A stretch of 64,000 nucleotides of DNA from Stramenopiles sp. TOSAG23-6 (lineage: Eukaryota; Sar): positions 28,455 to 92,454 of the forward strand of contig LT635910.1 of the NCBI GenBank assembly GCA_900128565.1, given 5' to 3'. The translations under genes were made by a program, and so were the position numbers. Positions 8,056-60,577 of this stretch are shown in pieces. How positions within the stretch are numbered: position 1 is the first letter of the stretch; each line of letters starts with the position of its first letter. Below the pieces are notes generated by a model. The model was not told the DNA's origin. It saw only the letters and a program-made list of their open reading frames with translations, and searched no databases.

Positions 8056-11004
8056 ATGGCGGCAATTTCATTCATTCATAGAAAATTCACGAAGATGAAA
8101 AAGGAAGAGTCGAAAATTGACCATACTCCCGGGTGGTCTCGGTTAAAGCACGCACACCACGCAAAGCGACATATCAAGAATTTAGTTATCACAAGACCTA
8201 TTGCAGCAAGAGTTATTCAAAAGACATTTAAAATATATCTTAAAAAGAAGCAAGGACTTTTGGCACCGGATACAACTAAAACATCAACGTTGACTACAAG
8301 TGACGATAAACTTAATATTGCTAGTAGTTCCACTAAAGAAGTAGATGATTGTCTAAACACTCCAGACAAAAAAACAGAAAGTAAATCTGTTGCCGGTATA
8401 CCAACAGAATATCTTGAGAGAATATTCAATAAACTAGATCATGATAAAGATGGTTTCTTATCAAAGAAGGAAGTAGGCAAGTTTGCAAAAGAGTTCCACG
8501 AAAAAATAACTTCATTCTTTGGTGGAAATTCTCTCGCAGCTGGTTTCGAGGAAATGGATAGAACTAAAAGAGGAAAGGTTTCTTTTGATGATGTCATTTG
8601 GTGGCATCGCTTACACCACCCAGAAACTGAAGAAGAAGTTGAATCTCAAATACATTTTCTCTTTAATGAGATTGACACAAAGGGCACTAAAACTTTAAAT
8701 AAAGCTGAGGTTGGCAAGTTGGCTGCAAAGATGGGAGACCGACTGAAAGGATTTTTCGGATTTAGCCACAAGAAGTTAGATTTAGCATTTGTTCAAATGT
8801 CACAAATTGGAAGTTCGGTTGTAACATTTGAAGAATTTTTAGCATGGCACAAATTCAAACATCCTAAGTTGTATAAAAAGTTAGCTTCGCATAATAAAGA
8901 TATACAAGAAAGCCATGATAAAGATCAAACTAATACACAGACACATACATTAGTTACAGGCGATCTTCCACCACAGGATGTTGTGATGAAAACGCGGACA
9001 TCAATTGTAGGTAAAACATCATTTCATCCCCCCAAGACTATGAATGAAATAATATTAAAAACAAAAATTCTCTTTGATGAGGTGGATAAAAAAAAATGTG
9101 GAAGACTAACTATAAGTCAAATGAATGATCTGGCTAAAAAACTTGGATATCATCTAGAAAGATATTTTGGTTTTTCTAAGAAGAAGCTTCTAGCAGCATT
9201 CGCCGATATGTCACTAGAAGGATCTAGTACAGTTACTTTTGAGGAATTTATACTTTGGCACAAAATGTATCACCCAGAAGTATATGCTGAGGTTCCAGAT
9301 TTACATGGTACAAAACGCATTACTGGTATCAATAGTTTGATGTCGAAATGCTCCGTAGCAGGTATACCAACGGAGCATTTTCGATTGATTTTTACTGAAC
9401 TTGACACAGACAATGATGGTTTACTTTCCGAAAAGGAAGTCGGCAAGTTTGCAAAAGAGTTCCACGAAAAAATAACTTCATTCTTTGGTGGAAATTCTCT
9501 TAAAGATGGCTTCAGAGAAATGGATAGAAAACAAATGGGTCGTGTTTCGTTTAATGATTTAATTTCATGGCATCGAAAGCATCACCCAGAAACAGAAGAT
9601 GAAATTACTTCACAAGTACAGTTTCTTTTTAACCACGTTGACCAAGAGAAATCTGGATTTCTGAATAAAAAAGAAGTAGGAAAACTTGCTTCTAAAATGG
9701 GTTATCGATTGAAAGGATTCTTTGGAATAAACCATCAAAAATTAGACATTGCATTTTCAGAAATGGTAAAACCTGGAGAATCACGTGTCACATTTGATCA
9801 GTTTATAAAATGGCATAAAATACACCACCCTGAAGTTTATCGAATGGTTAAAAAACATATACCAGTCAATTTAAAGGCTCGTCAATGTGAAGAAGATAGA
9901 CCAATAAAAAAATCATGTGAAGAAGATAGACCAATAAAAACATCGTGTGAAGAAGATAGACCAATAAAAACATCCACTACAGCCAATGTCAAAGTAGACG
10001 TAGACACATGGACTGCAACAACTTGTGCACATCTTGAAGATGCACTATCAGCCAATACATCAAGGAAACACATTCATCATGATGTGAATACGCTGCTCAA
10101 CGATCTCCCAGCTGATTTGAGTGCAAGCCTTCAAGTTGCCATGTCTATGAAAAATAAAGCAATTAGTAGGTTGAACGTAGAAATGGAAAATAAAGAGATT
10201 CTTTCAGGAGCACTGAAGTATTTGCGCAAAAATAATCTTATTCCCCCAAAGAGTTCTCATATTACTGCCGACACTTCAAAAGGAGAATTTCCAGAGTTAC
10301 CAGGAGTACACTCAATTTTTACCATAGCCCTGAGGAAAATACATGACTGTTTGTCATCAGTATCTGTACTTTCTGAGCTTTCTGATTGTGATACCGAAAA
10401 TACTGGTTTACTTGATACGTCTACTGTTTTCCAAAAGCTTGACAAGCATTTGAGATTTCCTCCTCTTGAAAAAGCAGCCGTATTCCTATTGATAGATCCT
10501 AATGGTGAGGGCAAAGTTCCATATAAAGATTTACCAAATATAATACCTCAAATCCCAAAGCCTGTGAAATGTAGTTCCTCCAATGAATATTTGCATGTAA
10601 ATAAGAAAGTAGAAAATATAACTTCAAGTTCAGATAATATAGCAGGTAAAACCCCAATGAAATTATCACCAAAGAACATAGGAAGTGTTTCAGTGACACA
10701 TGAAAATTTACCAGTGGAAGCCCCACCTAGGGAAATAGAAAATTTGCCATTAACATTTGAAAGGTTACCATTTAAAAAATCATTGAAATCATCACCTACA
10801 AAAATAGGACATGAAAAGTTACGATTGAAAAAATCATTGAAATCATCACCTACAAAAATAGAGGATTTGCCATTAACATTTGAAAAGTTACCGTTGAAAA
10901 AATCATTGAAATCATCACCTACAAAAATAGAAGATTTATCAGTGGAACTTGAAAAGTTAAAGAAAAATTTGCAAGTAAAATTGAAAGCGTTTCTTAGCGA
11001 ATAA
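8056..11004 (+). CDS. IQ/multi-EF-hand modular protein, 982 aa
   Basis: A single-exon protein. An IQ-like helix (ARVIQKTFKIYLKKKQ) lies near residues 50-65. Five modules of about 83 residues follow at roughly 114-196, 197-279, 335-415, 436-518 and 519-601. Each has an EF-hand-like helix-loop-helix, a G-F/Y-F-G segment and a terminal WH(R/K)xxHPE motif. Modules 1 and 4 have textbook Ca2+ loops (DHDKDGFLSKKE and DTDNDGLLSEKE); the others have weakened loops. A 10-residue CEEDRPIK(K/T)S repeat occurs three times at 9888-9977. Around residues 770-835 a further degenerate EF-like pair is visible (SDCDTENTGLLD, IDPNGEGKVPY). The Lys/Ser-rich tail repeats KKSLKSSPTKI three times. Probably a calcium sensor or scaffold; calmodulin binding through the IQ helix is inferred. 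No transmembrane segment. Confidence 0.85.
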   Translation: MAAISFIHRKFTKMKKEESKIDHTPGWSRLKHAHHAKRHIKNLVITRPIAARVIQKTFKIYLKKKQGLLAPDTTKTSTLTTSDDKLNIASSSTKEVDDCLNTPDKKTESKSVAGIPTEYLERIFNKLDHDKDGFLSKKEVGKFAKEFHEKITSFFGGNSLAAGFEEMDRTKRGKVSFDDVIWWHRLHHPETEEEVESQIHFLFNEIDTKGTKTLNKAEVGKLAAKMGDRLKGFFGFSHKKLDLAFVQMSQIGSSVVTFEEFLAWHKFKHPKLYKKLASHNKDIQESHDKDQTNTQTHTLVTGDLPPQDVVMKTRTSIVGKTSFHPPKTMNEIILKTKILFDEVDKKKCGRLTISQMNDLAKKLGYHLERYFGFSKKKLLAAFADMSLEGSSTVTFEEFILWHKMYHPEVYAEVPDLHGTKRITGINSLMSKCSVAGIPTEHFRLIFTELDTDNDGLLSEKEVGKFAKEFHEKITSFFGGNSLKDGFREMDRKQMGRVSFNDLISWHRKHHPETEDEITSQVQFLFNHVDQEKSGFLNKKEVGKLASKMGYRLKGFFGINHQKLDIAFSEMVKPGESRVTFDQFIKWHKIHHPEVYRMVKKHIPVNLKARQCEEDRPIKKSCEEDRPIKTSCEEDRPIKTSTTANVKVDVDTWTATTCAHLEDALSANTSRKHIHHDVNTLLNDLPADLSASLQVAMSMKNKAISRLNVEMENKEILSGALKYLRKNNLIPPKSSHITADTSKGEFPELPGVHSIFTIALRKIHDCLSSVSVLSELSDCDTENTGLLDTSTVFQKLDKHLRFPPLEKAAVFLLIDPNGEGKVPYKDLPNIIPQIPKPVKCSSSNEYLHVNKKVENITSSSDNIAGKTPMKLSPKNIGSVSVTHENLPVEAPPREIENLPLTFERLPFKKSLKSSPTKIGHEKLRLKKSLKSSPTKIEDLPLTFEKLPLKKSLKSSPTKIEDLSVELEKLKKNLQVKLKAFLSE
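9888..9977 (+). repeat. 30-nt in-frame minisatellite, 3 copies
   Basis: Three consecutive copies of a 30-nt unit encode CEEDRPIK(K/T)S inside the EF-hand gene. The copies differ at only one or two bases, implying recent expansion. Confidence 0.85.
10765..10935 (+). repeat. In-frame C-terminal repeats of the EF-hand gene
   Basis: The block encoding KKSLKSSPTKI is present three times, interleaved with LPLTFEKLP-type units (also seen three times). It makes a basic, Ser-rich tail. The repeats also generate a long antisense open frame that should not be read as a gene. Confidence 0.75.
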
Positions 11005-50620: not shown

Positions 50621-53600
50621 ATGTCCCATTGTACTGAAATAGACTTGAAATTTGGTGACATAGTTTCTCTTCACTCAATGTCAGAAGATGGTGTGCAAGG
50701 TTTCCTCCGTGCTGAAGGCACATCTGAAATGCATGTTACTCCATCAAACTATGATAAAAATACTAAAGATATTACAAATAATACAGTAACAACTGACGAC
50801 TTTCGGGAATGTGTATTCCGTGTTATGCCTCAGAAGCAATATTCTGCGAGAGAAGAGCTTCAACTGGAAATTGAAAAATTGACGTTATTTACAGCTGCTC
50901 GAAAGACTTCAAAAGACGCATATAATTCATACAAATATGGTCAAATTGAATCTCAAATCTTGGCACTCAAAGAGAACATTTCGGATCTTCACGAAGCAGC
51001 AAACATTGAAACAAAATTTAACCAGGTTGAGACGAAAAAAAGGCTGGGTCAGTCAGTAAGGTTCGGTGAGTGCGTTCAACTGCAACATGTCAAAAGTGCC
51101 AAATATATTGCGGTTCAACCTCAAAGTGTTGCTTTATTAGAAACGACATGCTTAAAGGTTGAACTTTCCCNAGGTTCTACGTGTTCATGGTTTACAATAC
51201 GACCAAGATTTAAGGTACATACAGATGGAGATGTAGTAGAAGTTTCGGACCAAGTTGTACTGGAATTTCGCCAACGACCTCATGAATTTTTGCACGTAAA
51301 TGCCCAGGAAGAAGTGAATTGTTCTTTGGTGCATACATCATGGTATATTGAACAGTTTTCATCATACACGTCTGACATGAATCGATTTGTGAACACACTA
51401 TCAATGATAAGAATACAACATCCTCAAACTCATTCTTTTCTTTGTTCAAATGAATCAATCAAGTATATTGGAGGTAAACGGGTCATTGGATCAAATAGAA
51501 ATGTGTTGCTTCATAAAGACGTTAAACTTGCGTCATTCCGAAAGAGAGTTAAAAATAGTAAACGCGAACATGGTAGTAATAATAAAATAGACACTGTTCA
51601 TGAAACTGGTGCTGATGAGGCAGAAGAAACAGAAAGTTATGGTAATGAATCTTCAATAAATTCGCCTCATCTAAATTCTAATTTTATTTGGATCATTGAA
51701 AGAGAAGATAATCGTACAGGTGGCGTCGCAGTTTGGGGAATGCGATTTCGGTTTAGACATTTAAATAGTGGTTTATACCTATCTTCAAATCCAAGCTGTA
51801 CAGCAGCTGAATTAATAGAGGAAGCAAATGTAAATAATATACCACTGAATAAGAAAATATCAAGCCATAATNAAATNTCAAATAAAAGTACAGGGTTGCA
51901 TCAACGTATTCAAAATAAGGATGAGATACTAGCAAGTATTCGGAACTTTAGTGATCTTTGTGTTGTAAAAAATAGAGAATCAATTGGTACTCTATTTGAG
52001 TTATCTCCGATTTCTCGCAAAACACGGGATTCGTTCCAAAGAATCCAGAAAGAATCAGGTCTAAAACTTAAAGCAATTGAGTATTTCCCAGTGGTCAATG
52101 ATAAAGCAGGAAACGATAATGATGGTGAAAATAATGCAGGTACAACGAATTCAATACACCCTGCATGGGTTCATCACCANTCTATTGAAGGACTCATAGA
52201 TGGAAAAGAAATGCTAAGGTCTGTCAGATGCACTGATAAAAGCAACAACGACGATGCACTCATTATACAAAACGTGAGTTCCAAACAATCCAAGGATACG
52301 GAACATTCACTTCATCTTGTGAACAATTTTGCACAATTATTTTTCAAATTGTCTAATGGTACGTTGACATTAAATGATGTAACGACATTAAAATATGCTG
52401 CCTCTTCCTTGGGTAATATTGTATACTTTGTTACAGGCAGAACATTGAACAAAACCTCATTTGGATTTGAAGATTCTATAGAAGCTATACTGGAAGAGTC
52501 CTTAGAGGTACCATTACACCCACGCCGGCAACATCTTGTACGCGAACAAGGGGCATTGAGAATTGCATTTAATTTAATTGAGCTCTTGATTGATCGCTAC
52601 CAAATAGGTGTAAATCATATGGAGAAAGAAGCTTTAAATGAATTAGAAACTAAAGAAGACAATAATAATGAAAATAATAGAAGTAGATGGTATGATGTTA
52701 AAGGTTTACATCTTGGCCAATTAGCAGGACGTAAGTTGCCGGGAAGTATACTTGGCGAGAAAGTTATATTGTTCTGTCGTGGTTTATACGCGATGATTAC
52801 ACTGACATTTCGCGAAAATACTAAAATAGAAATTTATGCAGCACAATGGATTAATATAATGATAAAGCACATTAATCTTAATATTGGAGCTGTAGGATGT
52901 CTCACATTATTAGTTGACGATAATGCAACCATCCTCACGGAGCATGTGACTGCTAGTCATATTAAACTATTTGCAGGCTTAATTTTGCAGTTTGGAATGA
53001 ATGCGCAATATTTGGAATTCCTTCATGCTCTTTGCTCGTGTGTTAAGGGTACACTTGGTCAAAGAGAAGTTATTCCTGATAATCAAGAACTTGTTGCTCG
53101 TTACATTTTAGATTTATCACAGACAAAAATTGAAAATACGACGAAAAATGATCGTGGTAGTGTGCTCATACGTACTAAATTTGATAAAGAGAGTAAAATT
53201 TCACCACCGATACAAAATGATTCAAATGACATTGACATATTTCTCAAAGACAGTCGTACTAATAGATCAACACATTCTAGAAATGTTAGCCATAATGAAA
53301 GTAAGATATGGGGGAAAGAACTTCTAGACCAAACCCACACAATTATTATTACATGGGATTCTCCGCCTGCTTCCTTGTCACCAGAAGTTCTCTTTGGAAA
53401 AAAGTGGGTACCACTGTCAGAATTTATGAGAAAATGCGAAAACACGAAGAAAGAAGAAGGGCGAGTGACAATGAGGGATTATTATTGTACACAAATTAAG
53501 CTATTTGCAAGGATGTGCTTGAATCGAAATTATCTTGCCATAATACCACTTCAGAAGTTTCTGCCATATAATGTAATCTTTTCAGCGATTGCTGACAAAA

Positions 53601-56600
53601 AATTGCCAAATATTCTTCGTTCGCATTTTGCTACATTGATGCTTGCACTTTGGGTTGATTGCGCACCACAACGACCACTTCGTATTCCATCTCTGACAAG
53701 ACTTGAGGATGAAAACATGTCATCAAACTCTTTTAAAACCGGAAAATTTCATGCATCAACTGATTTGTATTCAGGTAAATTTTTGCTTTTACAGTTACTT
53801 ACTGTGCGATATTTTAAAGATTTGCCAGGTCAATTAAAACAAGCAGCTACACTTATCAAAAAAAAAGGTATCAACAAATTAACAGAAGAAATAGCAAAAC
53901 TTGAAAATAAGCTTATTTGCTTTGGATTCTTCGGTACAATTGAGGAACTTTTAGTCATTGGTCCCCCAATTGCACTTGCATTGACAAATAGTGATGGTGG
54001 CAGCATTGATGAGCAATTAATGTCAAGAAAAGATAATCAAAGCTTAACAAAACGAAGCGCAAAAATTCATCCCGAGATGTCTGTTGTAACATTAAAGAAT
54101 AATACTGAAAATACTAGAAATGATACAGACACTGCAAATATAGCATTCAATAAAAACTTGATCAAAAATACAAAACAGCGTAGGGGTCATGGCAAGGTAA
54201 AAAGTGAAGAAACTGCCCTTGGAATTGTTGAAAAAACATCTGTTGTTGCACTTGTGTTTATATGCTCATTACTGAATCTTTGTATTGGGTTACTCTCACT
54301 AGGTCAAGTTGCAGGTATGGAAACAAGAAATTCTACAAGTGGTTTGCGCTTCATATTTGAGGTTTCCTGTGCAATTATTTTCTGTTCTGAAGCTACACTG
54401 CGAATGTACGGTATGGGGCTCCGAGCCTATTTTGAAGATTGGTTATGTTTTTCTGATGCATTAGTGTCAATAATGGATGTGTTTGCCCTGTTCATATCAG
54501 GGGACTTTGAACACATTGCACAAATAGCTGTAGGGTTACGACTTTTACGACTATTTCGTGTGATAAGGTTAATGCAGGATATACATTATACCCACAGCTT
54601 GCTATTTGTATCTATCAAATCACAGAGTAGTATTGTTAGGCCAACCCCAGTGGATGATCCGAAATATCGACAGTCGCAAGATAATCGGGAGCTAATGTCG
54701 AGTAAACTAGAACAGGTTCGTGTACTGCTTTTGATTGAAAAAATACTATTAGATCATAGACTATCTGCTCTCATCAAGCTATGCACAGATGCTTTAAAAT
54801 CAATGAATCATTCACAGGTAGAGAATTCTACAGAGAATCCATTTGCTCTAGCTTGTAGAAACCTGTGTTGTGAAAATTCCATGGATGATGCTGTGATCAG
54901 TCGATTTCAATCAATGCAAATCCACAATGTCGATCATGGTAATAAAACATTTTACACAAATAAAACTCACGAGAGGAACGAGAGTAGCGTGAAAATACGT
55001 TCTCTATCACGAAAACTTTCACAATCAATTACACTTGGCGTCGTTGGGAAACATCTTCTCCCAAATAAGCAAAAAACAGATGCATTGATATCTCCATTTA
55101 ATCAGGTTTTTTCGACGGTTCTTCCAGAATATTGGCTTGAACAATTCACAGTTCAAAATTTAGACGAAATACTAGTTGACATGTGTCTTTTTGAGGATAA
55201 ACTTCTTGTACAGGAGTCTTTAGCCCTTTTAATAGTTAAACACAGCCAACGTGATCGGCTTTTAAATAATCTCTCTCGTGTTCATCTACTTCATGGAAGT
55301 CTTGCAGAAATGTACGCTGAATTGAAACAAATTTCAAATCATCTAGACGATGCAGCTTTTTCATTTGAATGCTGGGAGAGCCTTACACGTACAGAAATAA
55401 TTTTGGTGGATGGAAAATCTAAGCGTATTAACACTGCAAGACAGACAAACAAAAATGTCAAGAAATGGTTCAAGCAACTAACTGATCATTGCACTGAACA
55501 GCCTCTTCAAATTGATCAAAAAATCCAAATTAATGATCAATGGCGTCAAATTCAATCGGTACTTGCAAATGAAGGTATTTTTGAAACCGTTCAAGAATTT
55601 TATAGACAAGTTCCAGGTGAGGCATTCTCAATAGCAAACGCTCGAATGAAGAAGTATGTAGCAACATTAAATAATTCAAGTGAATCTAACCAGACAGCAA
55701 AAAAAGATAAACTGATATCTCAAGAAAGAACTATACCTATTATAGGTGAAAAAAGCCCCCAAAAAACACCTACAATATCAAGTGGAATGGTTATTCGAGT
55801 AGCACAGTTAGCAGGCCAGCGTCATGTAGCCTCCGAAGTATTAGAGAATACAATGAACATTTTTAGTTTATGTAACAATTTTCTTGCAGCATGGGCACGA
55901 AAAAATCCTGAGAATCAAATCACACTATTTAAGAACAGAAGAGTTTTTTTTGATTGCCTTGGTGTTGTTCCCGGTGTTCCATTGGTCGTGAGGGCTATGT
56001 TCCATGATAATAGGAGTCTTTTAGAACGTGTAACAACGGAGTTCGTAGAACGCATTGTAAACACTATGTCATCATTGGATACTCCCGAAGCTTCGTACAT
56101 AAGAGTACTACGAAGTTTTGTTGAATGTCAGGGAACTCCGGTTGCAAGGAACCAAATGAAAGTGGTGAAAGTATTCAGACGGTTGCCATCTTTTTATCTC
56201 CAAAATTGGCTAGCAACAAATCCAAATAAAGCAGAGTATAAAGCGAGAGTACATGATTTTAAAAAAGGTGTTGATTGGAGGGATAGACCACGGACTATTT
56301 TTGGGTTAGAGTTACTGGACTTATTAGCGATGTGTTCCAAGGGAAAGTGTACATTGGCCGAGGCTCTTTGTCAAACGCTATATCCGTACGATAAAGTTAT
56401 CCAGGGTATTCTAGATGAAAGGTTACCTTGGAATATCCGAGGAACATTAATGTCTTTTTTTCTCCATACTGCTGTTGAAACAGAAACGCGAATTAGTAGC
56501 TTTGGTAATTGTGCTGAAATACCGCAACTACTGACTCTGTTTGTTCGATTACTTTCCATTTTAGCCAACCATTCCGATCGATTGGTACTACTAGGAACTA

Positions 56601-59600
56601 CTGATATATGGCGAAAAAAGGAACAACTAAGCGAGATTAATATTCTCAACGTGGGAAATATTGCAACATTCGAAGAATCTGACGGAACAGCGTCCCATTC
56701 ACAAATACTTTTGCATTTAATATACACTGTAGTACTACCAACTGCTCATTCTTTTTTCACAAAATATACAACAGAAATGTCACAGATACGTTTAAGGCTA
56801 CAATCAGAAGCTAAAGGTCTAGCTAATACAGCTGCTGCTTTTGTAGCAACCACACAAGAAGGTAAAAGTATAAACCAAACTTCCGTTAATACACTATTTG
56901 ATGACTTTGACTACTGTCTTCGTAAGCTAATTTCTATGAATAAAAGTAGCAAAAGTGGTCTTCACTATCTTCTTACTGAAGTGAGAAATAGCGCATTGCC
57001 GTTGCTATCTGGAAGATCCAAAACAATGCAGAGGAAATTAGCATTGAAGCCAGTTACAGCTAAAAACTTGTCTCAAAAGACAAAACCGAAAAAAAGAAAA
57101 CATTCTCATTGGGCATTTTCGAGAGAAAAAATACAATCTGTTAACGTAGGTTCACAGAAGTTGAATCCAAAGTTGCTTGCAGATGCGATGCACAAATCAA
57201 AAAGAATGCAACAAATGGTTGATATGGAGTTCCAAAAGTTGGTTGAAATTTTCTGGCAACTCTCTGTTGATGAGGCTTCAGCTAAGAGTCGCGGAAATGT
57301 TTTAAATCGTATTGTTCTTTTCACACGCTCTATAATAAAATTTGATCCTACTTCAACAACAGCGTTTAGCCGAACCGTAGACCCTTCTTTGGAATACCTA
57401 GTTGTTGGAACGCTAAGATTATTCAATGAGTTCCAGCACAATATTGAAGTTCATAAGCTCAAACGTGTAAAACACTGGTCCTCCATTTTTTTTGGTGAAT
57501 CTAACTCAAAACAAGACGAATTTTTCAAAATGCAGCAACAGAATAAAGTAGTTTTTCAAGAGCAACTGGTTTGTGTTGGCGCAATGAAGTTAATAGTTGA
57601 TCTAGTTGCTCCTGGTATTTCTTCAGTTATAATGATTGAAGCTTTAAGTCTTGGGTTGTCGATTATAAAAGATGGCTTTAAGTCTGGAATATCAGATGCT
57701 ATTAAGTATATATCCGCCGGATCTTCGGAAGATTTCTTTTCAGGAATTCGATTTACTCTGCAGAAGTGTATGCAGGCATTGCATGAAATTATTTCGCGTA
57801 CCAAGGAACGTCATATAAAGAATGAAGGAGATGGAAACCATGACTCAAAGCGTGAGGCATATAATGAACAGAAAGGTAGATCTTCCGGTAATACGCCAAT
57901 AAAGTATCCTTCCCACATATTTCCAGCTAGGAATGCGGATTATAAGTTGCAAATGTTGCTTGTAAGAACAATTATACATTTTTTAACAAACCTCTGCCGC
58001 CGAAATCGTCATATGCAGATTCTTCTGATGGAACAGCCTTCTAATGAAATTTCCGTTAATCTCCTCAGTGTTTTTGTTCACTATTTGAATATTATTTCAC
58101 GTGACTGTTTTACAGAAAAAACTAGAAAAACTCAAAGCACTAAACTTGGAAATAATGCCGATAAAGTTTATACATTTATATCTGCGAATGACGCTGCAAT
58201 GGCTTCGTCAATAGCACATCTTTTAATTGCAGCTGTGGTTGGACCTTGTCTGGAGACACAATACTTCCTAGCTATTGACACTGAGCTGCTTCATATAACT
58301 AATAGAATAGTTCGAAAAATGCGTTTGGTTTGGTCATCTCACTCTAGCGACAATGAAGCAAGTACTCAGGATTATCATAAGCTTTTTGATACTTGGTATA
58401 ATCTAGACCAGGCAATAATTAATTTGTTACTTGCTCTTTTAGAAGGTCGTAAGGATACTGTAGTCCACGCCAAATTTTTAGGAGTTATCAAATTTCGAGA
58501 TCTAATGCGCCGTATACGGGCAATTCGATTGCAAGACATTCTCGCACATAATCATATATTCCACGGAATAGGATCTCTTGCAGAGAATATGCTTCATATT
58601 CATCCTCTTCACATTAACGCAAAGTCAGGCCTGCATAAAATCGGCAAGGGGGCAGTCGAAGCATTGAATCCTTTTACAGTCGGTTCAAATCTTCGTAGCG
58701 TTGGGCACGGGATGAACAAAGTGGGACATGATATGAGTCGTGGGGCAATGGAGGGATTACTGAGTGTAGGTAAAGGAATTCTTGGTACAGTTTCATCAAA
58801 ACCACTTTATCATCATTCCCTCAAGTATGGATTCGAAGTAGTTTCTCTATTGTTACTGTTACGGGATTATGACAAATCATGGTTTGAAGGATTTTTAAAT
58901 GTATGTGATACGCAAACAAGATTGTCACCCACGTTTTCAACTCAAACAAATAGAACTATGAAATTGAAAACGCCACGACTTGTTCACATGAAATCTCACC
59001 GTAGCCAAACTGATAAAGCTTCTGCGTATGATCTCATAAGCTGGTACAAGCGTAAAATGTCATGCGTGGAAATACTGTGGAAAGGACAAATACATCGATC
59101 ATATTTTCCCAAACCCGCTATTTTTAAATTTGTAATGGAATCTAGCCAGGAAGCATTTGTTGAAAATGTGGATAGGACAAATTCTGAAACAAAGCTNATA
59201 TCATTAATGGCAGTGGCTAAACAAATGTACCACGAAATGCAACATCAGAAGCTCTTGAAAAGCCTAAGCCTTAGCCGTTTTGGTCTTGGCTTCTTGAATG
59301 TTGCTCGTGTATTATCTGATTCGAATCAGCGAATTTTAATGAATTTATCGTTTTATCTCGCGCTAATTATTAATACTATACTTTTAGCTTTCTATAATGG
59401 AGTTGAATCTAATCCTCGGCTAACAACTGAGTATAACACTCTCTTAAACGGTGTAAGTGACACTTATGTGCACATTCTGATAACATTATTCGGAACTCTT
59501 CAGGCATTCACTGCCTCAGCCCTACTTTTACAGGTAGTTGTTGTGAACGGTCCTACCCTTCTACAGCAACCAAGGTATAATGGTAGTATCGTCCTTCTTA

Positions 59601-60577
59601 TTGGAACTACTCGAATTGGGTGGTATTTATTGTATACTTTATTTGCTGCACTTGGAGCGGGCGGGTACCACGGATTTTTTGCATTACACCTTTTAGATGT
59701 AGTAGTTAGAAACTCTACTACAAGAGACGTTCTATATAGTGTTTGGAAGCCTATACGCCAACTTTCAATGACAGCCTTCTTTGCTATGATTGTAGTCTAT
59801 ATCTTTTCAGTGCTCATTTTTTTAGAATTCCGTGCTGATTTTGAACATGGAGAATGCCGCACTTTATTCACTTGTTTTGTCACGACACTTAATTATGGTA
59901 TTCGTAATGGTGGAGGTATTGGAGAGAGTGTTATGGAGTATTTTCCGGAAGAAGCCAGAGTTGAGTGGTTCCAGCGAACTGTGTTTTATTTTCTATTTTT
60001 TGGTACTTACAATCTCTTTCCGACCTACTTGAAATTTTCATATACATATTCCTGCTTACTAACTTATCCTCACACAATCTTGATATCTAAACCTAAAACA
60101 GTTGCCGTTAATATAATCTTATTGAATATCATATTTGGTATCATTATTGATAATTTTGCAATGCTTCGAGGTGTAAAAGAAGACAAAAATTTAGATATGC
60201 AAAATATATGTTTCATATGTGGTATTCATCGACCAGAATTTGACAAATTACGCCCAAATGGGTTTAGTCAACATATATCTTCTGAACATAACATGTGGTC
60301 GTATTTACAGTTCATTGTTCATTGTTGGGAAAAAGGTAGCACTAAATTGAATGGTATTGAGCGACATGTTGAGAATTCGGTAAATAATAATGACCCATGT
60401 TGGTTTCCAGTTGGGCGAGCAATTGAATTGGAGGGGAATAACAATGAAGAAGATGAAGCAGATTTAAAAGATTCTCTAGCTAAGTTATCTTCAGAGCTTC
60501 GTGAATTTACTTCTGCTGAACTTTCTAAATTAGGTCATGAACTCAAAAGTCGTACAAATGTTTCAATTAATACTTAG
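50621..60577 (+). CDS. Giant IP3/ryanodine-receptor-like calcium channel with an internal voltage-sensor domain
   Basis: Exons 50621-60002 and 60102-60577 give 3,285 residues. The N-terminus matches the IP3R suppressor/beta-trefoil region (LKFGDIVSLHSM, FRECVFRVMPQKQYSA, GECVQLQHVKSAKYIAV), then MIR sequence (GMRFRFRHLNSGLYLSS). RIH-type helical solenoid fills about 560-1150 and 1450-2750. Residues about 1208-1320 form an inserted S1-S4 voltage-sensor domain. The C-terminal six-helix channel begins near 2900, with filter GGGIGES at 3097-3103, a pore-lining helix restored by splicing (VAVNIILLNIIFGIIIDNFA), and the CFICG...HISSEHNMW zinc-finger-like C-terminal domain of IP3R/RyR. It probably releases Ca2+ from internal stores. 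Divergent from the M24 gene; convergent with an EF-hand-like gene 72 bp away. Confidence 0.92.
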   Translation: MSHCTEIDLKFGDIVSLHSMSEDGVQGFLRAEGTSEMHVTPSNYDKNTKDITNNTVTTDDFRECVFRVMPQKQYSAREELQLEIEKLTLFTAARKTSKDAYNSYKYGQIESQILALKENISDLHEAANIETKFNQVETKKRLGQSVRFGECVQLQHVKSAKYIAVQPQSVALLETTCLKVELSXGSTCSWFTIRPRFKVHTDGDVVEVSDQVVLEFRQRPHEFLHVNAQEEVNCSLVHTSWYIEQFSSYTSDMNRFVNTLSMIRIQHPQTHSFLCSNESIKYIGGKRVIGSNRNVLLHKDVKLASFRKRVKNSKREHGSNNKIDTVHETGADEAEETESYGNESSINSPHLNSNFIWIIEREDNRTGGVAVWGMRFRFRHLNSGLYLSSNPSCTAAELIEEANVNNIPLNKKISSHNXXSNKSTGLHQRIQNKDEILASIRNFSDLCVVKNRESIGTLFELSPISRKTRDSFQRIQKESGLKLKAIEYFPVVNDKAGNDNDGENNAGTTNSIHPAWVHHXSIEGLIDGKEMLRSVRCTDKSNNDDALIIQNVSSKQSKDTEHSLHLVNNFAQLFFKLSNGTLTLNDVTTLKYAASSLGNIVYFVTGRTLNKTSFGFEDSIEAILEESLEVPLHPRRQHLVREQGALRIAFNLIELLIDRYQIGVNHMEKEALNELETKEDNNNENNRSRWYDVKGLHLGQLAGRKLPGSILGEKVILFCRGLYAMITLTFRENTKIEIYAAQWINIMIKHINLNIGAVGCLTLLVDDNATILTEHVTASHIKLFAGLILQFGMNAQYLEFLHALCSCVKGTLGQREVIPDNQELVARYILDLSQTKIENTTKNDRGSVLIRTKFDKESKISPPIQNDSNDIDIFLKDSRTNRSTHSRNVSHNESKIWGKELLDQTHTIIITWDSPPASLSPEVLFGKKWVPLSEFMRKCENTKKEEGRVTMRDYYCTQIKLFARMCLNRNYLAIIPLQKFLPYNVIFSAIADKKLPNILRSHFATLMLALWVDCAPQRPLRIPSLTRLEDENMSSNSFKTGKFHASTDLYSGKFLLLQLLTVRYFKDLPGQLKQAATLIKKKGINKLTEEIAKLENKLICFGFFGTIEELLVIGPPIALALTNSDGGSIDEQLMSRKDNQSLTKRSAKIHPEMSVVTLKNNTENTRNDTDTANIAFNKNLIKNTKQRRGHGKVKSEETALGIVEKTSVVALVFICSLLNLCIGLLSLGQVAGMETRNSTSGLRFIFEVSCAIIFCSEATLRMYGMGLRAYFEDWLCFSDALVSIMDVFALFISGDFEHIAQIAVGLRLLRLFRVIRLMQDIHYTHSLLFVSIKSQSSIVRPTPVDDPKYRQSQDNRELMSSKLEQVRVLLLIEKILLDHRLSALIKLCTDALKSMNHSQVENSTENPFALACRNLCCENSMDDAVISRFQSMQIHNVDHGNKTFYTNKTHERNESSVKIRSLSRKLSQSITLGVVGKHLLPNKQKTDALISPFNQVFSTVLPEYWLEQFTVQNLDEILVDMCLFEDKLLVQESLALLIVKHSQRDRLLNNLSRVHLLHGSLAEMYAELKQISNHLDDAAFSFECWESLTRTEIILVDGKSKRINTARQTNKNVKKWFKQLTDHCTEQPLQIDQKIQINDQWRQIQSVLANEGIFETVQEFYRQVPGEAFSIANARMKKYVATLNNSSESNQTAKKDKLISQERTIPIIGEKSPQKTPTISSGMVIRVAQLAGQRHVASEVLENTMNIFSLCNNFLAAWARKNPENQITLFKNRRVFFDCLGVVPGVPLVVRAMFHDNRSLLERVTTEFVERIVNTMSSLDTPEASYIRVLRSFVECQGTPVARNQMKVVKVFRRLPSFYLQNWLATNPNKAEYKARVHDFKKGVDWRDRPRTIFGLELLDLLAMCSKGKCTLAEALCQTLYPYDKVIQGILDERLPWNIRGTLMSFFLHTAVETETRISSFGNCAEIPQLLTLFVRLLSILANHSDRLVLLGTTDIWRKKEQLSEINILNVGNIATFEESDGTASHSQILLHLIYTVVLPTAHSFFTKYTTEMSQIRLRLQSEAKGLANTAAAFVATTQEGKSINQTSVNTLFDDFDYCLRKLISMNKSSKSGLHYLLTEVRNSALPLLSGRSKTMQRKLALKPVTAKNLSQKTKPKKRKHSHWAFSREKIQSVNVGSQKLNPKLLADAMHKSKRMQQMVDMEFQKLVEIFWQLSVDEASAKSRGNVLNRIVLFTRSIIKFDPTSTTAFSRTVDPSLEYLVVGTLRLFNEFQHNIEVHKLKRVKHWSSIFFGESNSKQDEFFKMQQQNKVVFQEQLVCVGAMKLIVDLVAPGISSVIMIEALSLGLSIIKDGFKSGISDAIKYISAGSSEDFFSGIRFTLQKCMQALHEIISRTKERHIKNEGDGNHDSKREAYNEQKGRSSGNTPIKYPSHIFPARNADYKLQMLLVRTIIHFLTNLCRRNRHMQILLMEQPSNEISVNLLSVFVHYLNIISRDCFTEKTRKTQSTKLGNNADKVYTFISANDAAMASSIAHLLIAAVVGPCLETQYFLAIDTELLHITNRIVRKMRLVWSSHSSDNEASTQDYHKLFDTWYNLDQAIINLLLALLEGRKDTVVHAKFLGVIKFRDLMRRIRAIRLQDILAHNHIFHGIGSLAENMLHIHPLHINAKSGLHKIGKGAVEALNPFTVGSNLRSVGHGMNKVGHDMSRGAMEGLLSVGKGILGTVSSKPLYHHSLKYGFEVVSLLLLLRDYDKSWFEGFLNVCDTQTRLSPTFSTQTNRTMKLKTPRLVHMKSHRSQTDKASAYDLISWYKRKMSCVEILWKGQIHRSYFPKPAIFKFVMESSQEAFVENVDRTNSETKXISLMAVAKQMYHEMQHQKLLKSLSLSRFGLGFLNVARVLSDSNQRILMNLSFYLALIINTILLAFYNGVESNPRLTTEYNTLLNGVSDTYVHILITLFGTLQAFTASALLLQVVVVNGPTLLQQPRYNGSIVLLIGTTRIGWYLLYTLFAALGAGGYHGFFALHLLDVVVRNSTTRDVLYSVWKPIRQLSMTAFFAMIVVYIFSVLIFLEFRADFEHGECRTLFTCFVTTLNYGIRNGGGIGESVMEYFPEEARVEWFQRTVFYFLFFGTYNLFPTYLKFSYTYSCLLTYPHTILISKPKTVAVNIILLNIIFGIIIDNFAMLRGVKEDKNLDMQNICFICGIHRPEFDKLRPNGFSQHISSEHNMWSYLQFIVHCWEKGSTKLNGIERHVENSVNNNDPCWFPVGRAIELEGNNNEEDEADLKDSLAKLSSELREFTSAELSKLGHELKSRTNVSINT
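60003..60101 (+). other. Stop-free 99-nt GT-AG intron in the channel gene
   Basis: Donor GTACTTAC, branch-like CTTACTAAC, acceptor CTAAAACAG, phase 1. Length is a multiple of three and lacks stops, so it reads through as 33 extra residues. Removing it restores the conserved IP3R pore helix and IIDNFAxLR. Confidence 0.9.

Follow-up and report, generated by a model that had tools for sequence, protein, structure and literature searches.

The window, by which we mean the whole 64 kb stretch of DNA analysed (C368:28455-92454; G+C 34.5%), carries a long open reading frame (ORF) for a homologue of the IP3 receptor (IP3R) with a voltage-sensor domain (VSD) in mid-protein (Table 1). Spliced genes and IP3Rs in the assembly indicate a eukaryote, probably a single-celled one. 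The encoded protein, P0001 in our set, matches IP3R1 chains in the PDB with an E-value of about 1e-93. Its Ins145_P3_rec, MIR, RIH, and RIH_assoc domains all pass the Pfam cut-offs and follow the order known from IP3Rs, and both signs of an IP3R-family pore, a GGGxGD/E filter and a C-x2-C motif, can be read in the protein. A stretch within the pore domain is probably an intron, since joining the coding sequence across it gives FFVAVNIILLN, as in the paralogues (by eye). An ORF finder reads straight through an in-frame intron of this kind, which can then be mistaken for protein. No sign of an intron was seen in the VSD of this ORF, where the match to the family profile described below spans positions 7-144, the VSD of P0001 itself being one of the 20 seeds of that profile. 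We class the gene as an IP3R homologue of new domain architecture and do not claim it as a proven IP3-gated receptor; that a VSD lies inside an IP3R homologue is near certain. About 40 kb upstream of the channel gene, a 982-residue ORF (window 8056-11004, +) has many EF-hands, with EF-hand_7 matches in five stretches, ends in C-terminal K/S/P-rich repeats (by eye), and probably encodes a Ca2+-binding protein.

Table 1. Features of the VSD-bearing IP3R homologue, in window coordinates (res, residues of P0001)
Feature	Position	Strand	Details
IP3R homologue ORF with internal VSD	50621-60577	+	3318 aa; single frame without stop, one probable in-frame intron included
N-terminal Ins145_P3_rec domain	50645..51370	+	res 9-250; E 3.3e-32
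MIR domain	51569..51859	+	res 317-413; E 3.9e-7
First RIH domain	52520..53113	+	res 634-831; Pfam match
Solenoid segment ahead of insertion	53921..53989	+	FGFFGTIEELLVIGPPIALALTN; equivalent hIP3R3 FGFYSFSELLRLTRTLLGIIDC (alignment)
S1 hydrophobic core	54239..54295	+	res 1207-1225; predicted helix 1194-1230
S2 helix	54338..54415	+	res 1240-1265; F1254, E1257, R1261
S3 helix	54440..54496	+	res 1274-1292; D1279, D1286
S4 helix and extension	54515..54625	+	res 1299-1335; R1307, R1310, R1313, R1316
RY family motif (here K1348-Y1349) plus first post-VSD solenoid helix	54662..54751	+	to about res 1377; equivalent hIP3R3 EDIVVMETKLKILEIL
Second RIH domain	55814..56173	+	C368:84268-84627
RIH_assoc domain	57953..58309	+	res 2445-2563; Pfam; JD Ca2+ site residues E/E/Q read R/A/V
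IP3R pore domain, Ion_trans match	59645..60031	+	filter GGGIGE at 59909-59926
Probable intron inside pore domain	60003..60101	+	99 nt, GT...AG, in frame; sequence and paralogue comparison

An earlier note on this DNA had placed four helices in VSD order at residues of about 1208-1320 and recognized in them the S1-S4 pattern of Cav/Nav channels, and our searches bear out both points. The stretch that it cited, residues 1207-1316, is matched by the S1-S4 part of Ion_trans: Pfam aligns residues 1214-1326 to profile positions 10-114 of 241, i.e., to the S1-S4 half only, with an E-value of 2.3e-10 and 40.5 bits (cut-off 25) for the whole protein and 1.7e-10 for the segment by itself. The best PDB matches of the segment are Cav2.2 (E 1.5e-6), Cav2.1, Cav3.3, and Cav1.1. 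E1257, R1261, W1274, D1279, D1286, R1307, R1310, R1313, and R1316 all stand where the note had put them, and the marks of a Cav/Nav VSD, namely an aromatic residue and an acid in S2, an Asp in S3, and at least four Arg at i+3 spacing in S4, are all present. The predicted structure of the segment is a four-helix VSD fold (mean pLDDT 75.9) and not a set of soluble RIH helices, the outcome that the note had named as contrary to its reading. We rejected the spacing of the S4 arginines as sufficient evidence in itself, for 463 of 1000 shuffles of the window protein reach at least four K/R at i+3 spacing. With such runs this common in shuffled sequence, the case rests on the profile match together with conservation across species. 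The identity of the VSD segment to those of 21 relatives is low (16-25%).

As the note had also said, no pore follows the VSD directly, the filter GGGIGE lying about 1,780 residues downstream, and the idea that the VSD is part of a full second channel was rejected because the Ion_trans match there ends at profile position 114. The module thus resembles the VSDs of four-domain Cav/Nav channels in its S1-S4 fold, S2 acid and Phe, S3 Asp, and S4 Arg at every third residue, but its S4 is followed by an armadillo solenoid where those channels have an S4-S5 linker, and no S5-S6 pore comes next. IP3Rs and RyRs have four helices of their own in the S1-S4 "pseudo-voltage-sensor", which, unlike the present module, is a C-terminal part of the pore domain. 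Among the structural matches of the predicted VSD model are Ci-VSP and SLC9C1, where a VSD is likewise grafted onto a non-classical effector; there, however, a phosphatase or a Na+/H+ exchanger serves as effector, and the VSD is not placed in the middle of the regulatory body of a ligand-gated channel. Four membrane helices in mid-protein would leave both flanks on the cytosolic side and so retain the normal IP3R topology. The stretch ahead of S1 is basic (RRGHGKVK), and the S1-S2 loop holds an N-glycosylation sequon at N1237, which fits an outer or luminal position of that loop.

The window gene is one of four VSD-bearing IP3R genes in the genome, the others lying on contigs C132, C108, and C312. 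C132 holds a 3140-residue open frame (P0002, incomplete at the contig start) with the VSD in mid-protein and a C-terminal IP3R pore. C108 has a VSD, RIH_assoc, and a pore, with an intron ahead of S4, which resumes as VRTLRLLRMLRLLRLIRAAKLARAL. C312 has the N-domain, RIH, and RIH_assoc, and a VSD interrupted by introns (by eye) whose S4 resumes as VRLLRLFRAARLAKQLL; its pore lies beyond the stretch read, and it is absent from the 16 matches found in an Ion_trans search of the assembly (408 contigs, 8.03 Mb). That search also gave four Cav/Nav-like matches on C93, one of them with 3 in-frame stops that perhaps mark an intron, two TPC-like matches on C11, and one each on C289 and C379. In a separate 822-residue ORF of this genome (L012:256-2724, minus strand; G000:C59), an adenylate/guanylate cyclase domain (E 4e-17) comes after a VSD-like match to Ion_trans (E 1.4e-5; 24.9 bits, cut-off 25), which makes it a possible voltage-sensor/cyclase fusion.

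The earlier note had suspected that protist homologues might share this layout, and a survey of relatives agrees. A protein search with residues 1080-1480 of P0001 gave no match at E <= 0.001 among 2605 candidates, so the pore was used to collect relatives, which were afterwards examined for the VSD. Starting from the pore of P0002, we obtained 108 IP3R-like proteins, and a VSD profile, whose 20 seed proteins were picked by eye for their S4-like repeats, matched 24 of the 110 proteins in this first set. From a second pore-based search, with P0022, the best 120 of 2993 matches were taken. At E < 0.01 the profile matched 82 of 214 proteins, a proportion that is no natural frequency because the proteins were chosen by similarity; each match lay away from the C-terminal pore, and no C-terminal pore domain of the 214 proteins scanned was matched at this threshold. 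Pfam's own model agrees on 22 of 22 VSD segments tested (12 of them profile seeds), which leaves the remaining 60 of the 82 assigned by our home-built profile only. In the mostly open literature that we searched (among it PMC9694693, PMC11085791, PMC7016017, PMC3194816, PMC9663519, and PMC10613215), nothing pointed to a VSD inside an IP3R, and an earlier description elsewhere is possible. PF00520 is given at most once per protein in the search tables, so that the extra VSD is hidden behind the pore, and this should serve as a warning in annotation.

Named carriers of the VSD are Triparma laevis, Aureococcus anophagefferens, Cymbomonas tetramitiformis, and Ochromonadaceae sp. CCMP2298, the last with a profile match but without an S4 repeat. 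Cymbomonas is a green alga, and the other named carriers are stramenopiles. Among the 214 proteins the profile found no match in the named vertebrates, Trichuris, Hypsibius, Brachionus, or Salpingoeca, nor in the named ciliates, Diplonema, P0041 (whose transcript prefix suggests Euglena), or the two oomycetes Achlya and Saprolegnia. In a tree of the last 850 residues, VSD excluded, of all 110 proteins and C108, 25 VSD rows fall inside a 31-row clade (SH-aLRT 99). A second tree has 129 rows, made up of every one of the 82 VSD proteins, a single paralogue from the genome, and 46 of the 132 proteins that lack a VSD. It places all 83 VSD rows in one 100-row clade (SH-aLRT 98; quick search, no bootstrap, root not inferred). 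At least nine changes of state are needed on the tree to explain presence and absence of the VSD. Seven of the 17 rows without VSD in the 100-row clade are short (<=2000 residues) and perhaps cut ahead of the region, although other short proteins of the set do carry it, and P0031 is identical in pore sequence to the Cymbomonas protein, under a different gene model. The other nine appear to be true absences (P0005, P0023, P0027, P0030, P0039, P0122, P0125, P0160, and P0162), the loop itself having been inspected in all of these except P0027 and P0039. A single gain with later losses would fit best, and the green alga amid stramenopile carriers may reflect great age or transfer.

In a 22-row alignment of the VSD, the only invariant columns are F1254 in S2, D1279 and D1286 in S3, and R1307, R1310, and R1316 in S4. 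The same positions stand out across the 82 VSD proteins: an acid occurs at 1257 in 82 of 82, F at 1254 in 79, R/K at 1261 in 80, D1279 in 80, D1286 in 76, R/K at 1307 in 80, R at 1310 in 78, R/K at 1313 in 77, and R/K at 1316 in 76. These positions match the charge-transfer residues of voltage sensors. Functional voltage sensing by this putative sensor is likely. Seven or eight S4 charges are in register in 66 of the 82 proteins, with four in the window protein and fewer than four in six. A VSD match with no run of S4 charges was found in P0035, P0054, P0163, P0166, P0167, and P0173; the matches of P0166 and P0167 are weak (E about 2e-4), and P0035 shares a clade with members that have no VSD module. 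It is possible that these six are stages of VSD decay.

Ligand-binding residues were compared in a 37-row alignment that includes 25 of the 82 VSD proteins, numbered after turtle IP3R3 (P0189). Of the IP3-coordinating residues checked (R266, T268, R270, R503, K507, R510, Y567, R568, and K569), P0001 keeps only R510 and K569 out of nine, and in the 25 VSD proteins Y567 is found in none and R510 in 12; the columns of R266, T268, and R270 (beta-trefoil) are gappy in most VSD rows, which makes that part of the comparison weak. IP3 contacts are mostly missing from two oomycete IP3Rs without VSD too. The activating JD Ca2+ site (E1882, E1946, Q1949) is intact in 24 of the 25 VSD proteins, and C108 and C312 have it too. 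With this site kept and the canonical IP3 contacts mostly gone, the family looks Ca2+-gated, as a prediction from sequence. Compared with IP3R1-3 of the RyR/IP3R superfamily, the window protein has the same Ins145_P3_rec, MIR, two RIH, and RIH_assoc domains in the same order, a 6-TM pore, the GGGIGD/E filter, and the C-x2-C motif (filter and Cys pair read here), but differs in its Cav-type VSD in place of the wedge loop, its few IP3 contacts, and its lost JD Ca2+ site.

The window paralogue looks further derived than the family as a whole. It reads R, A, and V at the three JD Ca2+ positions, the sole exception among the 25 VSD proteins checked, carries Q at its fifth S4 position, against R/K in 78 of the 82, and ends a fairly long branch (1.36) in the second tree. 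On these grounds it could have lost part of S4 along with the Ca2+ site, its VSD being partly vestigial and the protein perhaps serving only as a heterotetramer subunit with its paralogues. This reading is compatible with the others, and we consider it somewhat unlikely, given that the window protein retains the filter GGGIGE and each of the six VSD residues that are invariant.

By alignment with IP3R, the VSD stands in place of the wedge loop in the central linker (helical) domain. A sequence search of the PDB with the joined flanks of P0022 returned unrelated weak matches only and no IP3R, and Foldseek with the wide model gave no IP3R among the 50 matches listed; IP3R was found in the PDB with a segment of a metazoan relative, and again in a structure-based second look. 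The linker before S1 is variable (40-82 residues in 14 rows). For 77 of the 82 VSD proteins we could measure how far the RY motif lies from R1316, the fourth charge of S4; the spacing is 26-28 residues in 63 of them (range 24-33; 32 in P0001 and 31 in P0002). A variable linker on the N side and a link of fixed length on the S4 side match what mechanical coupling from S4 would need. A [KT]-[IV]-x-P motif seen by eye upstream of S1 in P0004, P0009, P0010, P0013, P0018, P0019, P0020, and P0025 might be a linker docking motif.

The VSD could instead be a membrane tether that keeps the cytosolic solenoid near the bilayer, lipids, or partners, with voltage sensing incidental. A long and variable N-side linker suits a tether, and a tether would also permit the six of 82 proteins, two of them weak matches, that match the profile without a run of S4 charges. 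However, the positions conserved in most members are the sensor residues themselves, and the near-constant length of the S4-side linker is unneeded by a mere tether, so we regard this explanation as improbable. Still less credible is that the VSD is itself a permeation path, signalling by its own proton or cation "omega" current and not by mechanical coupling. Isolated VSDs such as Hv1 can conduct, and there is no pore directly after the module; the near-constant S4 linker, on the other hand, favours mechanical coupling, and neither the S1 selectivity Asp nor the RxWRxxR of S4, the marks of Hv1, was seen by eye in the 22-row alignment, which disfavours proton conduction, short of excluding it. 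The overall reading of the earlier note, which had allowed for such conduction, stands as regards a poreless Cav/Nav-type VSD in an IP3R homologue, found in relatives too, and is weakened as regards protons. Misassembly or gene-model fusion of an IP3R with a fragment of a voltage-gated channel, which the fragmented assembly and five N bases within the ORF might suggest, was rejected and has next to no probability, as a single open frame runs through both flanks, a VSD recurs in another three genes of this genome and in 80 other proteins, and the RY flank follows S4 at 24-33 residues in 77 of the 82.

The best mechanism for these channels, and one that we think rather probable, is that voltage tunes ARM2 priming, with a voltage response and a coupling path that we infer. 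In animal IP3Rs the wedge loop holds ARM2 in its resting position, extended at rest and retracted when primed, and priming is done by IP3. In the present family, the VSD-IP3Rs, comprising proteins of named algae and many largely metagenomic sequences, a Cav-type S1-S4 module takes the place of the wedge loop. Ordinary biogenesis places a VSD in the same membrane as the pore, and we infer that it would lie there at the edge of the tetramer. Depolarization would move S4. The S4-to-RY linker, short and nearly constant in length, would carry this movement to the helix immediately behind the wedge loop, and ARM2 would thereby shift between the extended position of rest and the retracted, primed one. 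Voltage would in this way tune or take over the priming done by IP3 in animals, with Ca2+ as co-agonist in most members and a presumed loss of IP3 control as part of the scheme.

A stronger form, in which voltage has replaced IP3 altogether and the VSD at the wedge-loop site directly primes a Ca2+-gated release channel, we put forward only tentatively. If true, it would mean that the work done in muscle by two proteins, a voltage sensor and a release channel, is done here in one polypeptide, an ancient and separate invention of voltage-coupled Ca2+ release. In the DHPR-RyR1 pair of skeletal muscle, a voltage sensor likewise governs an IP3R/RyR-superfamily channel through protein contact, but two proteins in two membranes are involved, whereas a VSD-IP3R is one polypeptide and, by ordinary biogenesis, in one membrane.

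IP3Rs are textbook ligand-gated channels, and the presence of a VSD in dozens of relatives suggests that membrane voltage could act directly on such Ca2+ channels. With IP3 contacts mostly gone and the Ca2+ site kept in most members checked, the family bears on what opens IP3R homologues of this kind. A VSD in the very loop tied to IP3-driven priming would show electrical and chemical Ca2+ signalling merged in one protein, and the VSD-IP3Rs allow the wedge-loop/ARM2 model of IP3R gating to be tested on a natural case. In algae and other protists, these channels are candidates for voltage-linked Ca2+ signalling.
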